In this document: positions 52,944 through 60,713 of the stretch, piece after piece
Numbering within the stretch: position 1 is the first letter of the stretch
How the letters are laid out: every line of letters starts with the position of its first letter
Source: Methanosarcina thermophila TM-1
GTDB taxonomy: Archaea; Halobacteriota; Methanosarcinia; Methanosarcinales; Methanosarcinaceae
DNA length: 64,000 nt
Reading direction: 5' to 3'
Assembly (NCBI RefSeq): GCF_000969885.1
Contig: NZ_CP009501.1
Coordinates: 2,921,877 to 2,985,876 of the forward strand
The notes under the pieces: model-generated
Database searches by the model: none
What the model was told of the DNA's origin: nothing
What the model saw: only the letters and a program-made list of their open reading frames with translations
Program-made: the position numbers and the translations under genes

Positions 52944-53339
52944 ATGTGGGACATAATTGCAGTAGATATTTCCGGCAGGCACAGGATTAAAGGAGGTTAT
53001 TACATGGTATGTGCAGCAGCAGCGCTTACGGTCTCAGCCAACTATATTGAGAAGGTTAAGCAGGTCAAAATCCTGCCCCTCTGGCTAAAAAGAGCTCCAA
53101 GTTTGCTGGATGTCGTGCAGCTAATTGAAGATACTGCTGACCAGCTATCTTTCGAGGGCACGATTGTGGCAGAAAAAGGGGACATGTATAATAAACCCAG
53201 ATGGGTGACCGAAAGTATGTTTTCCAGGGCTTTTAAGTATCAGGAATCAATTGCCGAGAGGCGGTCGATAGAACTCGTGCATCATATTTCCCAGAGCGCC
53301 CGCAATCTATTGATAAAAGAACTTCAAATCGAGACATGA
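52944..53339 (+). CDS. DUF2209 family protein
   Basis: The 131-residue archaeal protein begins MWDIIAVDISGRH and contains an RAPSLLDVVQLIEDT helix and ERRSIELVHHISQSAR. It matches DUF2209, an archaeal family of unknown function with a possible RNase-H-like start (a VDIS motif). The stop overlaps the HflX ATG by ATGA (53336-53339), so the two are translationally coupled. Confidence 0.85.
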   Translation: MWDIIAVDISGRHRIKGGYYMVCAAAALTVSANYIEKVKQVKILPLWLKRAPSLLDVVQLIEDTADQLSFEGTIVAEKGDMYNKPRWVTESMFSRAFKYQESIAERRSIELVHHISQSARNLLIKELQIET

Positions 53340-54622
53340 AAATTTCAGCAGAACAAAAACTCGGTAACGGAAACAGGGTAATTCTAGTTAAAAGGGCCAC
53401 TCCTAATTCCGACTCTGAACGTGAGGAATACCTCTTCCAGGAACTCAGAGAACTTGCAAAAGCAGCAGGTTACCTGCCGGTTGGTGAGCTTAAGCAAACC
53501 AGGTATCCTGATTCAAAGTATCAGCTAGGCAAGGGGAAAATCGAAGAACTTGCCGAACTTGTGAGAAGCATTGGTGCAGATAAAGTAATTTTCTATAACA
53601 GACTTTCCACGACACAGCTCTTCAACATCTCGGAAATCTGTAAATGCCAGGTTATAGATAAGTTCCAGCTCATCCTTGAGATCTTTGCAAAGAGGGCAAC
53701 CACCCACCGCTCAAAACTCCAGGTAGAACTGGCAAGACTGAGATACGAGATACCCAGGGCAAGAGCCGTTGTTTCTCTCGCTAAGAAAGAGGAGAGAGCA
53801 GGCTTTATGGGACTTGGAGATTACGAGGATTCTTATGAACAGGATCTGAAGAAGAGGATCGCAAGGATTGAGAGTGAGCTTGAATCGGCAGAAAAAGATG
53901 ACGAGTCTCTGCGGGCTTTAAGGCACAAGAAGGGGTTTTCTTTAATTTCCCTTGCAGGATATACAAATGCTGGAAAAAGCACGCTTTTCAACGCTATTGT
54001 CAGTGAAAGTGTCGATGTGAGGAATATGCTTTTTACAACGCTTGTGCCTACCACCCGAGCTCTGGACCTTGGAGGACGAAAAGCTCTTTTAACCGATACC
54101 GTGGGATTTATAGAAGATCTTCCTCACTGGCTGGTTGATGCTTTCAAATCTACCCTCAACGAGATTTTTCTATCGGATCTTATACTCCTGGTCGTGGATG
54201 CAAACGAAAAACCTGAAATGATTCTGCTAAAGCTTGCTACATCCCATGACACCCTCTGGGACCGTATTCAGGGAGTTCCTATTATAACTGTGCTTAACAA
54301 GGTAGATCTTGTTGACGAATCCAGACTTGATAGTATTATGGAACAGATAGGTTATATGGCTCCTAATCCTGTTTTCGTTTCTGCAAAAAAAGGCATCGGT
54401 ATGGATGTACTAAAAGCCGAAATAGTCAAGCATCTGCCTCCCTGGTGTTTTTGCTCCCTTTCCCTACCGAATTCGGAAGAAGGAATGTCGATTCTTTCCT
54501 GGCTATATGATGAAGGAATTGTACACAGAGTTGAGTTTGGAGAACAAATCCATGTGGATTATGAAGCCAGGACCGAGATAGTTAACAAAGCACATGCCCT
54601 CCTCGGACCGAAGGAAGTTTAA
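53336..54622 (+). CDS. hflX: GTPase HflX
   Basis: The 428-residue protein has an N-terminal HflX domain with a glycine-rich QLGKGKIEELA motif, a coiled linker and a G domain with GYTNAGKSTLF (G1, about 207), DTVGFIEDLP (G3) and LNKVDLV (G4). HflX binds large ribosomal subunits and can split stalled ribosomes. It is coupled to DUF2209 by a 4-bp overlap. Confidence 0.95.
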   Translation: MKISAEQKLGNGNRVILVKRATPNSDSEREEYLFQELRELAKAAGYLPVGELKQTRYPDSKYQLGKGKIEELAELVRSIGADKVIFYNRLSTTQLFNISEICKCQVIDKFQLILEIFAKRATTHRSKLQVELARLRYEIPRARAVVSLAKKEERAGFMGLGDYEDSYEQDLKKRIARIESELESAEKDDESLRALRHKKGFSLISLAGYTNAGKSTLFNAIVSESVDVRNMLFTTLVPTTRALDLGGRKALLTDTVGFIEDLPHWLVDAFKSTLNEIFLSDLILLVVDANEKPEMILLKLATSHDTLWDRIQGVPIITVLNKVDLVDESRLDSIMEQIGYMAPNPVFVSAKKGIGMDVLKAEIVKHLPPWCFCSLSLPNSEEGMSILSWLYDEGIVHRVEFGEQIHVDYEARTEIVNKAHALLGPKEV

Positions 54623-54948: not shown

Positions 54949-55053
54949 TTAGGGAATTTTTTGCACAGGTGGAATAATGTTCGTATAAATACGAAAGGTA
55001 TTTATATTCAGAAATCGTTTGTATATATGCGAACGGGCGTCTACTGTAGACAT
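54949..55053 (-). CDS. Candidate 34-residue microprotein
   Basis: ATG 55053 on the minus strand follows a perfect AAGGAGGG site (55058-55065) at four-base spacing and opens 34 codons (MSTVDARSHIYKRF...). It overlaps the palindromes and inverted repeat of this locus, so its sequence may be dictated by DNA structure rather than protein function. No family is recognised. Confidence 0.3.
   Translation of the reverse strand: MSTVDARSHIYKRFLNINTFRIYTNIIPPVQKIP
54979..54995. promoter_or_regulatory. TTCG palindrome 1
   Basis: GTTCGTATAAATACGAA contains a 7-bp perfect inverted repeat around a two-base centre. It lies just upstream of a TATA-like TTTATAT (55001-55007). Similar palindromes occur at 55016-55035 and 55161-55177. 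It could be a repressor operator. Confidence 0.45.
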
Positions 55054-55120
55054 CAGACCCTCCTTATATCCTAAACTATACCCTTAGAACCAGATTTTTG
55101 CTATGTTTCTGCCCGTTCGC
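55029..55120 (+). ncRNA. Candidate structured RNA
   Basis: GCGAACGGGC (55029-55038) and its exact complement (55111-55120) would close a 92-nt hairpin. Inside is a smaller palindrome, GTCTACTGTAGAC (55039-55051). The left arm begins about 25 bp after a TATA-like TTTATAT (55001-55007), where transcription would be expected to start. The right side is followed by T-rich sequence. The minus strand is equally possible. No known RNA family is recognised. Confidence 0.3.
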
Positions 55121-55160
55121 AATTCCTCCTTGTTTTGTCTTTATTTTTAAGACATCATTT

Positions 55161-55177
55161 GTTCGTATTAAAACGAA
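55161..55177. promoter_or_regulatory. TTCG palindrome 3
   Basis: GTTCGTATTAAAACGAA has TTCGT/ACGAA half-sites like palindrome 1. It lies upstream of the PHP gene promoter and of a minus-strand TATA-like element. Confidence 0.4.
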
Positions 55178-55289: not shown

Positions 55290-55964
55290 ATGAAATTCGA
55301 TCTGCACGTACATTCCGAGTATTCAAAGGATAGCAAATCGAGCCATGACGCCATTCTTGAGTCTGCGCGCAAAAAAGGACTTGATGGATTTGCTATCTGT
55401 GATCATGATACTGTGGAAGGTGGGCTTGCCTGTGAAAAACGAGCCATGGAACTTGGCTTTGAGCTTACAGTCATTCCCGGAGTCGAGGTTACCTGTTCTA
55501 AAGGGCATATCCTGGTGCTAGGAGTCAAACAGAACATTGAGCCTTTCCTTAGCCCGGAAGAAACGATCATAAGAGCCCGGAAACTTGGAGGCACGGTTAT
55601 CATCCCTCATCCTTTCAAGCGAAGTTCCCACGGAATAGGAAGCTTCGAAGGGCTTGATATTGATGCAGTTGAGGTTTTCAATTCCCGCTGCCTATTCAAT
55701 AACGCCAACAGGAAAGCTGCAATCGAGGCAAAGAGGCTTGGAATTCCCGGGGTTGCAGGAAGCGATTCCCACATTCCCGAAATGGTCGGCCAAGCCTATA
55801 CCGAGATCGACGCGCCTGAAAACACCCTCACCGCCGTGCTTGCGGCCATCCGAGAAGGAAAGGTAGCTCCTGCGGGAAAAAATACGCCCAAATCAATTAT
55901 TCTTAAGCAGATGTCAGGCAGTGCAAAGCGAAAAATCAAGAGAAAACTGTTTCATAAAATCTAA
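55290..55964 (+). CDS. PHP-domain phosphoesterase
   Basis: The 224-residue protein is a PHP metal-dependent phosphoesterase with DLHVHSEYSKDS at residues 3-14, CDHDTVEG, HPFKRS and GSDSH metal-ligand motifs. It starts at ATG 55290: a TATA element (TTATATAAA, 55257-55265) is centred about 29 bp upstream, so the mRNA is likely leaderless. An upstream ATG at 55194 would add a non-conserved stretch. Family members hydrolyse nucleotides or phosphorylated metabolites; the substrate is unknown. Confidence 0.88.
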   Translation: MKFDLHVHSEYSKDSKSSHDAILESARKKGLDGFAICDHDTVEGGLACEKRAMELGFELTVIPGVEVTCSKGHILVLGVKQNIEPFLSPEETIIRARKLGGTVIIPHPFKRSSHGIGSFEGLDIDAVEVFNSRCLFNNANRKAAIEAKRLGIPGVAGSDSHIPEMVGQAYTEIDAPENTLTAVLAAIREGKVAPAGKNTPKSIILKQMSGSAKRKIKRKLFHKI

Positions 55965-56501: not shown

Positions 56502-59500
56502 ATGGCCAGGAAACCTGACAATTTTTCATTCTTCATTGAGGATACCTGTGCCTACATTCCCTATGCCGTAATCGGGATTTTCATCCTGCTTGTATCAACC
56601 TTCACCTCAGTTTACCTTCTAAAGATCGACAGTGAAGTCGCAGAAACCATTTACACCACCGAGAATGTTAACCCTGAGAAAAGTGCCATCAATCTTGCCT
56701 CATTCGACCTTGCCCGCTGCCTGAACTACGCAGGAATGGAAGCTCTGGAATGGCAAGGAGAACATCCTGTAATTCTGCCTGAAGGCAGTGCAGTTGACAG
56801 GTTTTCTGAAGACGGTTTTATGGTGATCCCGAAAAACCAGAACCTTGAGAAAGGAGATTTGCTCCAGCTTTCCATAAACCTGCCTTCAGATATCTGGGGT
56901 AAAATAGAAGCTCTTTGGAAAAACCGCGACATTAAACTGATTGTCAACGACTCTTCAGGTAACGAAATAAAAAACATAAACTACGGCCAGGCAACCGGTT
57001 TTTTCCAGAAAGTCTCATTCCAGGAAACCGTGGAAATTCCGGACTCTGCAGCCTCAGGATATGCCTCAATTGAACTTTATTACGGCGACGGATTAAAAGC
57101 CTCGGACTGGTTCGTAATTGAGGTAAGCCCGGTAAAAGACATAACAGCAGACGCTTTTAACAGGCTGCTTTCTGCAAATTACCAGGGAAACAGCCACACG
57201 TTCAGGGAATACGCAATCAATGTCGAACCTGACATAAAACCCGAGCAAATAAAAATCAGAAAAGTAACCGGAACTTTGCAAAGGGAGATCTCATCTGGTG
57301 GCAAACATAAGAATTATGCTGACGCAAACCCTGCTTTTGATACAGGTTACAACACTCATTCCAGCAAAAATTATACTATTTATTACGTTTTCGAGATTCC
57401 TGCCCTCAATTATACTCTTGTTAACCTGGAGACCGGAGAAAGCTCTAACCGCAGCATGAAACTTTCTACCCTGATAACCTCACGGGAACCTCTTCTTGAA
57501 GAGCTTGTCCGGGAATACGAAACCGAACTTGGAAACACTTCAAGTCTTGATTCAACATCTAACCTTGTGCTCGGAGCAACAAACCTGAGAACTTTCGTTT
57601 ACGGTCCCTGGCAGCATTATGCAAACGGTCCTCTGAATATCCTGACCAATCCTGCCCTCTCAAGTTCAATTAACGGAGCCACACTCTACACTCAGAAAAA
57701 AATTTTTGATTCGGTTGACCCCCTGTCTCTAACATACACAACCTATTATAATGAAAAAGTTCTTTATGAAGATGTTTCTTCTTCAAGCAGCGTTTCAGAC
57801 CGAAATAAAGCACCTTCGGGTTCTAATAGTATCTCGAATACTTCAATTTCTAGTTATGAGCGAGATAAAGGCGTAAACCTGACAACTACTTACGATTCTC
57901 TTGCGCAGAATAAATCTTTCTCTTTTGATGTCGAAAAAAGCATAAAAGAATCCCTGAGAGAGACAAATACTTCCTTTGAAGAGCTCTCTGAGTATTCGAA
58001 AATTGAAGTTTCAGCTTCTAATTATACAAATGGAGTTATTGACGGCTGGGTCTTTAATGATCACGTATGGATAGAAGAGAATCCTGATCTCATTCATGCG
58101 GTTACGGACAGCGTTTACACAGCATCGGTTCAGGGGCAAATCCTGAGAGATGGTTTCGCTTTTCCTGATCCGATTTCCTCTCAAATTACTGCAAATTTTG
58201 ATTCGGATTCGGTTTCGTTTACCAGTCAAACTGTTAGCTGGGACTCGAACTATTTAGCATCAGGAGCGCATAAAGGCTCTCTTGTGCCTTCTTACTCATG
58301 GAGAGACTCAACCAGAAAATCCTATTCCGAATCCTTAGATCCTTCAATTGAACCTCCGGAAGGAAGTGTATCCAGATGGTCAATTTCAGCGGCAGATGTC
58401 AGCCTGATTTCTGCCGACATAGTCGATGTAAAGATTGAACCTCATTTTTCCTATGCAGGTAATGATACCCTGACGTTTGAAAACCGGAGTGAAGGCTACC
58501 TGAACCGCGAAGAGCATGTCTTTGACTGGCGAGTCAGGTACGATATTTCTTACAAAATCGTAACAAACTGGAAAATAGACTATAGTTACGATTACACTTA
58601 CAAATGGAAAACCAGAGAGCAGTTGCCTGATGGAAATTATACCACGGTCACGCATTCCGATACATCAAGTGGTTTAGCCTCAAAAACTGTAAGCAAAGTC
58701 AATCTCGCATCGCTTTCTCATGCAGAAACCGAAGCCGAAAAACTGACAATAGTTTACCACAAACGACCTCCTGCAGGCGGTTACATCGGCTTGTCAACCT
58801 ATTCTGATCCCATAGAGCGAGAATACAGGGAAACAACCCTTTATCTGGACAATAAAGGCGGTACAGGCATTCTGAACGAAATAGATAGTTTAGATAGTGA
58901 CACAAATAAAATCGAAAGATTCGACCCATGCTGTTCTGATGCTGCCGACAAATACAGGGACGAATATGTGGATTTAAGGGCAATAGAGAGCATGTTTTGG
59001 GCTTACCCTGACGGGCAATATCTACCCAAACATGCTGTAAATTGCGATATTCCACCATGGCTGCACAGAATTATGGCAGAAGAAGTTCTGGAAATGCTCA
59101 ATTCTGTAGAAAAGGATAATCCTACCTTTAATTATTCTCTTATGGATTCCCCTGGGCAGGATCCTACAGATTTGCAGGTACAAACTGCCGAAAAACTCAT
59201 TCTGAAACTGGAAAAAGGCAGGGAAGCTTACGTAAACAAAGAAAAGTATCTTACACCGTCAGGAAAAATATATGCTTCAAGCGATTCTGCCCGGTACATT
59301 GCTAAAAACGAGGCTTACAACAGGTTGATAGAAGATATCGACAGGAAAAACCGTAAACTGGATTCTGATATCAATTCCTACATTCTTAAAGCTCTTGAGA
59401 AAAAAAGCATTGATACCAGTTCGTTTGACAGCGTTACCTCAGTCAAAATGACTCTTTTTAACAATCCGGCAGTGGAAAGGGCTGCTTCAGTTCTGGGCGA

Positions 59501-60713
59501 AGATATGGGTATAATCTCCACTATGACTGTTACCGGTCAACCGGAAAGCAAATACAATTGGACAGAAAATCTGACTTTGATCGTTGATCAGAAACCTAAC
59601 TATCTTTATCACGATCCGGATTTTGACCTGAGAGAGGAGTATGAATGGACTGATGCCGCGACTGGAAGAACAATTTACCCCCTTGGTGTACGTAATACCT
59701 GCATTTTTACAACAGGTATCTCCGAGGAAATAGCAGACAGTATTTCTTCAAGCAATGAATACGTAAAAACTGAAATAGCACAGCAAATAAGCCAGAGTAT
59801 CTCAAGCCTGAACACTGAAGTTCTATTATTTGAACAAGATCTGAGCGAGCAGAATATCTCTCTGGATACAACTCGTCTTAACAAAGAAGTTTACAATTTG
59901 AAGCATACTTATGCGCAGGAAATGAGATCTCAAATAACTGAAAATGTAGTCAAAGAGATAACTTCGAATCCAGTAATTTCAGACTGGATCAAAGAAGAAA
60001 AAGTTAGGGCGATTACAGCAAGCTGTCTGAATAACTTTTCCGATGACCAGGTAATCCAGAAATCTACTACTGATGAACTCGCAGTTGAACTCTCTGCTAT
60101 TATAAAATCTGAAATTCGAAACTCAAATCTATCGATTGGGCATGATGAACTTGAAGCTACTCTAAATAGAGTAGATACTGACATCAGAATAGGGGTTGCA
60201 AATGGAATCTGTGCAGTTACAGTAAACAAAGGCCAAACCCTCGATGCTGGCTTCGAGAGAATTGATAAAGAGTTGAAAAATCTAGCTAATGAAACTGTTG
60301 ACACATATTCCGGTGAAGCAGGAGATAAGATAAGAAGAAGGCTGGATAGGACGATGACAACTATTCCGTGTGGATTGCCTGTGTTGCCACCACATTGGGT
60401 TTTTACAATTAATATTTGGACGTATGATGTAATGGCAGAGTACAAAGAATTCACTATAATCGATAATGATAATGAAGTTATTCCCAAGCCTTATTTTGGG
60501 CATAAAGGACAGAAGTATGTTAGACAAGATGACGCAATCGTTTTGAACGACGAATATCTTGGTGAAAACATACCTATAACTTTTAAGTTCAGTGGGTATG
60601 CAACTTCAATAGTAGGTTCAGGCCCAAAGGGTGTTGGGGATAAACTGGGAAAAAGTACTGAAGAATCAATAGGATATGAATATCTTTTATCAAGAGTTGG
60701 AGGAAGTAAATGA
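56502..60713 (+). CDS. Giant membrane-anchored surface protein
   Basis: The 1,403-residue protein starts at ATG 56502 after GGAAGGG; the open frame extends to TTG 56397. It has one N-terminal membrane segment (residues about 16-38) resembling a TadE-like or pilin-like anchor, then about 1,360 exported residues. These are rich in Ser, Tyr and N-glycosylation sites (NxS/T), with a helical region at about 980-1340. The stop overlaps the next gene by ATGA, so both are made together. The family is not recognised; it is probably an envelope or adhesion protein. Confidence 0.8.
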   Translation: MARKPDNFSFFIEDTCAYIPYAVIGIFILLVSTFTSVYLLKIDSEVAETIYTTENVNPEKSAINLASFDLARCLNYAGMEALEWQGEHPVILPEGSAVDRFSEDGFMVIPKNQNLEKGDLLQLSINLPSDIWGKIEALWKNRDIKLIVNDSSGNEIKNINYGQATGFFQKVSFQETVEIPDSAASGYASIELYYGDGLKASDWFVIEVSPVKDITADAFNRLLSANYQGNSHTFREYAINVEPDIKPEQIKIRKVTGTLQREISSGGKHKNYADANPAFDTGYNTHSSKNYTIYYVFEIPALNYTLVNLETGESSNRSMKLSTLITSREPLLEELVREYETELGNTSSLDSTSNLVLGATNLRTFVYGPWQHYANGPLNILTNPALSSSINGATLYTQKKIFDSVDPLSLTYTTYYNEKVLYEDVSSSSSVSDRNKAPSGSNSISNTSISSYERDKGVNLTTTYDSLAQNKSFSFDVEKSIKESLRETNTSFEELSEYSKIEVSASNYTNGVIDGWVFNDHVWIEENPDLIHAVTDSVYTASVQGQILRDGFAFPDPISSQITANFDSDSVSFTSQTVSWDSNYLASGAHKGSLVPSYSWRDSTRKSYSESLDPSIEPPEGSVSRWSISAADVSLISADIVDVKIEPHFSYAGNDTLTFENRSEGYLNREEHVFDWRVRYDISYKIVTNWKIDYSYDYTYKWKTREQLPDGNYTTVTHSDTSSGLASKTVSKVNLASLSHAETEAEKLTIVYHKRPPAGGYIGLSTYSDPIEREYRETTLYLDNKGGTGILNEIDSLDSDTNKIERFDPCCSDAADKYRDEYVDLRAIESMFWAYPDGQYLPKHAVNCDIPPWLHRIMAEEVLEMLNSVEKDNPTFNYSLMDSPGQDPTDLQVQTAEKLILKLEKGREAYVNKEKYLTPSGKIYASSDSARYIAKNEAYNRLIEDIDRKNRKLDSDINSYILKALEKKSIDTSSFDSVTSVKMTLFNNPAVERAASVLGEDMGIISTMTVTGQPESKYNWTENLTLIVDQKPNYLYHDPDFDLREEYEWTDAATGRTIYPLGVRNTCIFTTGISEEIADSISSSNEYVKTEIAQQISQSISSLNTEVLLFEQDLSEQNISLDTTRLNKEVYNLKHTYAQEMRSQITENVVKEITSNPVISDWIKEEKVRAITASCLNNFSDDQVIQKSTTDELAVELSAIIKSEIRNSNLSIGHDELEATLNRVDTDIRIGVANGICAVTVNKGQTLDAGFERIDKELKNLANETVDTYSGEAGDKIRRRLDRTMTTIPCGLPVLPPHWVFTINIWTYDVMAEYKEFTIIDNDNEVIPKPYFGHKGQKYVRQDDAIVLNDEYLGENIPITFKFSGYATSIVGSGPKGVGDKLGKSTEESIGYEYLLSRVGGSK

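Follow-up and report, generated by a model that had tools for sequence, protein, structure and literature searches.

An intergenic locus of Methanosarcina thermophila TM-1 is, as far as its sequence allows a judgment, probably a stand-alone small RNA gene that is repressed by MsvR and induced by oxidation, and whose RNA would occlude ribosome-binding sites. MsvR is a methanogen-specific redox repressor; the locus holds the strongest predicted MsvR site of the genome together with a concrete output, and the RNA is a good candidate for a switch by which strict anaerobes damp translation upon oxygen. The oxygen response of strictly anaerobic methane producers thereby becomes directly testable through this locus. 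It lies in a window (the whole 64,000-nucleotide stretch of DNA that was analysed, positions 2921877-2985876 of a single 3,127,379-base Methanosarcina contig) between hflX and a PHP-phosphoesterase gene, both on the + strand. Its features, in window positions, are:

53336..54622, + strand: hflX (HflX-type GTPase; Pfam GTP-bdg_N, MMR_HSR1, GTP-bdg_M), the upstream neighbour, which adjoins the RNA in relatives too
54980..54995, no strand: operator 1, TTCGTATAAATACGAA, an MsvR-type box abutting the BRE/TATA and equal to the published TTCGTAN4TACGAA
54992..55007, + strand: BRE-like CGAAAGG and TATA box TATTTATAT, the predicted RNA promoter, conserved in a 22-locus alignment
55018..55033, no strand: operator 2, TTTGTATATATGCGAA, an imperfect palindrome across the predicted start site (matrix rank 4 in the window)
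55029..55120, + strand: body of the predicted small RNA, with a 10-bp stem closing it (covariance model R1, fold, stem retention)
55029..55038, + strand: 5' arm of the closing stem, GCGAACGGGC (inverted repeat, pairing in aligned sequences)
55039..55051, + strand: small hairpin GUCU-N5-AGAC (85% of cells paired, columns 12-14/27-29; one compensatory change)
55050..55071, + strand: single-stranded core ACAUCAGACCCUCCUUAUAUCC with the anti-Shine-Dalgarno CCCUCCU (mean column identity 0.97)
55111..55120, + strand: 3' arm of the closing stem, GCCCGTTCGC (column identity 0.95)
55121..55148, + strand: 3' tail with a second anti-Shine-Dalgarno, UUCCUCCUU, and a U-rich, presumed termination zone (TCCTCC in 21/27)
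55162..55177, no strand: operator 3, TTCGTATTAAAACGAA, 3' of the RNA (matrix rank 2 in the window)
55290..55964, + strand: PHP-domain phosphoesterase (Pfam PHP and PHP_C), the downstream neighbour, with its own TATA box directly before its start

The distribution of the locus makes it highly probable that the conserved RNA gene is real. Of 24 other Methanosarcina genomes, BLASTN recovered the locus from 21, and it did so from none of the 15 genomes searched outside the genus. The covariance search suggested by a first-pass annotation of the window was made with model R1, built from 27 distinct sequences, across 186 genomes of the order, and returned one copy each in 28 of 31 Methanosarcina and in all four sister-genus genomes, with no copy in any other of the 186. 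The single copy in the present genome scores 109 bits (E 9e-23), and the next match 19 bits. Alignment reveals one conserved block, consisting of palindrome 1, the BRE-like element and TATA box, and then the RNA; mean column identity is 0.91 across the RNA and 0.60 after 55132, and conservation is confined to operator, promoter and RNA, dropping to 0.53-0.60 outside them. The first-pass annotation had named a lack of conserved stems or palindromes in relatives among the grounds for rejecting its proposal; the comparison with relatives did not refute it. For the suggested small RNA with operators the support is good, and comes from conservation across the genus, from the promoter geometry and from the structure.

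The RNA gene is predicted to extend on the + strand from 55029 to about 55145, giving an RNA of about 110-125 nt that begins GCGAACGGG at about 55029. As annotated, the 10-bp inverted repeat is present and bounds 92 nt, and this 92-mer folds at -23.4 kcal/mol (shuffled mean -13.3), better than all 200 shuffles, with a z of -3.7 on the plus strand and -3.4 on the minus. Across the 27 sequences 98.5% of the cells of the closing stem are paired; this owes most to invariance and to G-U variants, and a full exchange of G-C for A-U is seen once. Covariation in the stem is no higher than in shuffles of these 27 sequences, since the arms hardly vary and the 5' arm also serves as the right half of operator 2, so that support for the stem comes from energy and retention. 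In the core that the stem encloses, CCCUCCU is invariant among the 27 sequences with a mean unpaired probability of 0.89, and the second anti-Shine-Dalgarno, in the tail, is unpaired at 0.95. The annotated internal 13-bp palindrome is present (GTCTACTGTAGAC, 55039-55051), but its perfect form is private to this genome among the 27 aligned sequences. No Rfam family matched above its gathering threshold, the sub-threshold matches being chance matches only.

The three annotated palindromes were all recovered within one or two bases of their reported positions. The TATA box is centred 26 nt upstream of 55029, and operator 1 and the TATA box together have a mean column identity of 0.88. All relatives whose locus was inspected have operator 1 in exact or near-exact form, and the left half of operator 2 and its GCGAAC are kept genus-wide in the 22-locus alignment. 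Operator 3 is one of three one-mismatch sites in the genome; it lies far from any TATA box, and a TTCG-N8-CGAA occurs near that position in about half of the relatives. With a matrix trained on 19 distinct msvR-promoter boxes of the genus, none of them taken from the RNA locus, operators 1, 3 and 2 come first, second and fourth in the 64-kb window. The features to which the first-pass annotation drew attention are more than chance, given these ranks, the fold of the 92-mer and the unique match at operator 1.

A genome-wide palindrome search, also proposed by that annotation as a route to a regulator, found no exact TTCGTAN4TACGAA in the 3.13-Mb genome other than operator 1, and the box pointed to MsvR. 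Isom and colleagues described MsvR boxes as this partial inverted repeat upstream of the M. acetivorans msvR TATA box, bound by MsvR only when the protein is reduced, and mapped a TATA-start distance of 27 for msvR (PMC3729527). No MsvR binding was reported for a TTCGN8CGAA within rpoK, which indicates that the motif alone is insufficient; in that Methanosarcina study binding was shown at msvR's own promoter only, and tests of an antioxidant gene cluster were negative (PMC3729527). The msvR gene of the present genome (780957-781691; ArsR-type HTH and V4R) is preceded by TTCGTGGCGATGCGAA-CGG-TTTATATAA, and across the genus msvR promoters carry box, BRE and TATA in the same order as the RNA promoter. 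Of the 28 RNA-bearing genomes, 22 have the exact motif TTCGTRN4YACGAA at the promoter of the RNA, and in 18 of those 22 it is the sole genomic copy; the RNA promoters without it that were inspected read TTCGCA...TACGAA. The number of exact motifs per genome is not above that of a reversed control, and it is position alone that stands out: the other exact sites inspected are coding or have no TATA box, except for a tandem copy in G006. The protein whose box these palindromes match is encoded about 0.93 Mb away, unlinked to the locus, so the annotated idea of a self-regulated unit finds no support.

The distribution of MsvR parallels that of the RNA. MsvR was found in 27 of the 28 RNA-bearing Methanosarcina (the exception being a genome 75% complete) and in 4/4 RNA-bearing sister-genus genomes. 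It was found in none of the three Methanosarcina lacking the RNA (G005, G011 and G017), which are 99, 92 and 73% complete, absence in drafts not being proof. The hypergeometric probability of this co-occurrence is 4/4495, uncorrected for kinship. That RNA and MsvR are absent together may go back to no more than one or two evolutionary events; when proteins of G005, G011 and G000 were compared in part, no clear sister grouping appeared. Many genera that lack the RNA also have MsvR, which therefore has other roles, the RNA being a lineage-specific addition. Sequence evidence of several kinds supports an RNA gene with this promoter geometry and genus-wide conservation, the match of its operators to MsvR boxes, and its joint absence with MsvR. 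We consider it likely that the RNA gene is MsvR-controlled.

We hypothesize that in the reduced, anoxic cell MsvR would sit on operator 1, over the BRE beside the TATA box, and probably also on operator 2, over the start site, where it would block TBP/TFB and polymerase. Oxidation of the MsvR cysteines would release the protein and allow an RNA of about 110-125 nt to be transcribed from about 55029. The 10-bp stem of this RNA would present the single-stranded core, whose CCCUCCU could pair with Shine-Dalgarno regions of target mRNAs, assisted by the second CCUCC after the stem, and translation initiation would be blocked. Transcription, the occupancy and redox release of MsvR, ribosome-binding-site occlusion and the choice of target mRNAs are steps that we infer.

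Whether the RNA acts at ribosome-binding sites is, on its sequence features, a finely balanced question. The argument for it joins the preference of the anti-Shine-Dalgarno core for such sites to the reviewed sRNAs of M. mazei, which typically work through occlusion of ribosome-binding sites (PMC6560208). The preference itself is a modest effect: compared with shuffles, the anti-Shine-Dalgarno part of the core gives a z of -2.2 on ribosome-binding sites and -0.5 on coding segments, and the 3' tail has a weaker tendency than the core to pair with ribosome-binding regions. No perfect trans target was found, searches for the complement of a 16-mer with 3 mismatches giving counts not above control, and the 13-mer GGAGGGTYTGATG is almost confined to the antisense of the RNA itself. 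No conserved target mRNA emerged from 100 ORFs, the complement searches or the flanks of relatives. Among the 100 ORFs tested, the best pairing (-24.4 kcal/mol) was that between CAUCAGACCC-UCCUU of the RNA and AAGGAAGGGUUUGAUG, the ribosome-binding site with start codon of a DUF7286 gene (window 56502-60713, 1403 aa). This gene was not found beside the RNA in the relatives' flanking sequence examined, so its conservation as a target is not shown. The ACDS genes were tried as a preferred target and rejected, their pairing of about -10 to -16 kcal/mol being ordinary when the mean is -12.4 (sd 4.9).

Two readings would deny that the locus is a stand-alone RNA gene. The first-pass annotation entertained a microprotein, and its 34-codon minus frame (55053-54949, SD AGGAGG) does exist; if this frame were the gene, with the ATG at 55053, the plus-strand features would be its regulatory region. 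The succession of SD, spacer and ATG seen here, and the retention of ATG or GTG in 21 of the 27 sequences, speak for such a gene. It is nevertheless very improbable: the start is gone in six of the 27 (ATA, ACA, ATT), several have a premature stop or a shift in the frame, its first residues are free to vary, and the conserved promoter points the opposite way. What the annotation took for a "perfect SD" in the minus frame is more plausibly the complement of the anti-Shine-Dalgarno core of the putative plus-strand RNA. A plus-strand microprotein was discarded as well, as most of the 27 sequences have a stop after 6 codons. A riboswitch or other cis-acting leader belonging to the PHP-phosphoesterase gene downstream would account for the shared strand, the hflX-RNA-PHP order common to most relatives, and the aptamer-like closure of a stem round a conserved interior. 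The PHP gene, however, has a TATA box of its own adjoining its start, the spacing between RNA and PHP gene runs from about 150 to 750 nt among relatives, and in G019 the RNA is intact with the PHP start about 5 kb off, all of which argues against a leader and leaves it a poor explanation. The RNA is, by sequence, an independent intergenic unit with its own conserved TATA box, and stands alone in G019. The mRNA of the PHP-phosphoesterase is itself likely leaderless, to judge from its promoter. In G019, transposase-like sequence (by eye) lies immediately 3' of the RNA (C16, around 203162-208574; L283).

Two further readings accept the RNA and dispute its regulator or its novelty. TTCG-type palindromes could be bound by other proteins, boxes 2 and 3 are imperfect, and binding of MsvR here is a prediction only; the operators might then belong to a different palindrome-binding regulator. 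We regard this as unlikely in view of the exact published consensus at operator 1, the geometry shared with msvR promoters and the high matrix ranks, and the joint absence of RNA and MsvR. Less easily set aside, if still on the unlikely side, is that the RNA is one of the catalogued sRNAs of M. mazei, for instance sRNA41, in which case MsvR control would be a new fact on a known RNA. The 2009 M. mazei list reportedly holds about 200 sRNAs. sRNA41 occludes several ribosome-binding sites, among them those of ACDS genes, as an anti-Shine-Dalgarno RNA might, and is lowered in nitrogen limitation; moreover TTAGGAGG, which is complementary to CCUCCUAA of the core, makes an 8-nt match at some ACDS ribosome-binding sites of the M. 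mazei-like G008. Against identity, the ACDS sites taken together show no special complementarity to the RNA, and the RNA matches no Rfam family. No paper linking MsvR to an sRNA was found in the literature searched.

Known systems share parts of the proposed MsvR-repressed RNA gene. The Methanosarcina msvR promoter has the same TTCG-N8-CGAA directly upstream of BRE/TATA and a TATA box about 26-27 nt before the start, whereas the RNA promoter would drive a non-coding RNA instead of msvR and has extra boxes over the start and 3' of the gene. The trans-acting M. mazei sRNA154, sRNA41 and sRNA162, which occlude ribosome-binding sites, are likewise intergenic with exposed anti-RBS sequence and a stable stem; they differ in being under nitrogen control where the present RNA has a redox-type operator, and sRNA162 is a 191-nt RNA located at MM2441-MM2442. 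OxyS of Escherichia coli is an oxidant-induced sRNA under OxyR. The likeness proposed here is one of working only, a thiol-based redox regulator set over a small RNA with translation as its point of action: there is no homology, and OxyR is an activator while MsvR is a repressor released by oxidation. We know of no Hfq dependence for the present RNA. Haloferax volcanii offers other archaeal sRNAs that respond to H2O2; these were found by sequencing, targets were studied for the antisense ones, and the abstract ties none to a defined redox repressor (PMC5892119). More tentatively, the present RNA might be the first sRNA of the MsvR regulon and the principal Methanosarcina target of MsvR besides msvR, with a generic anti-Shine-Dalgarno core by which translation would be damped across a broad range of mRNAs in the oxidised cell; it would then be an archaeal analogue of OxyS of independent origin.

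Two other sites carry similar boxes. The second-best motif site, at 1372347, was considered as the msvR promoter, wrongly, as msvR lies elsewhere with its own box. There, overlapping near-MsvR boxes, TTCGTACAATTTCGTATAGTTACAAA, are followed by a TATA-like GCGTATATAA (G000:C1:1372337-1372362; L048:1491-1516) in a spacer adjoining a class II fructose-1,6-bisphosphatase-like gene, and by their sequence these boxes are a possible further target of MsvR. In G006, the main RNA is followed, about 300 bp downstream, by a second, diverged RNA-like unit (L285, G006:C216:24000-26500; L015:1881-1962). This unit, possibly a tandem paralogue of the RNA, has its own exact MsvR-type box, TTCGTATGTCTACGAA, and a TATA-like element, and its closing stem, GCGAACGG/CCGUUCGU, is 8 bp long and encloses a different interior.
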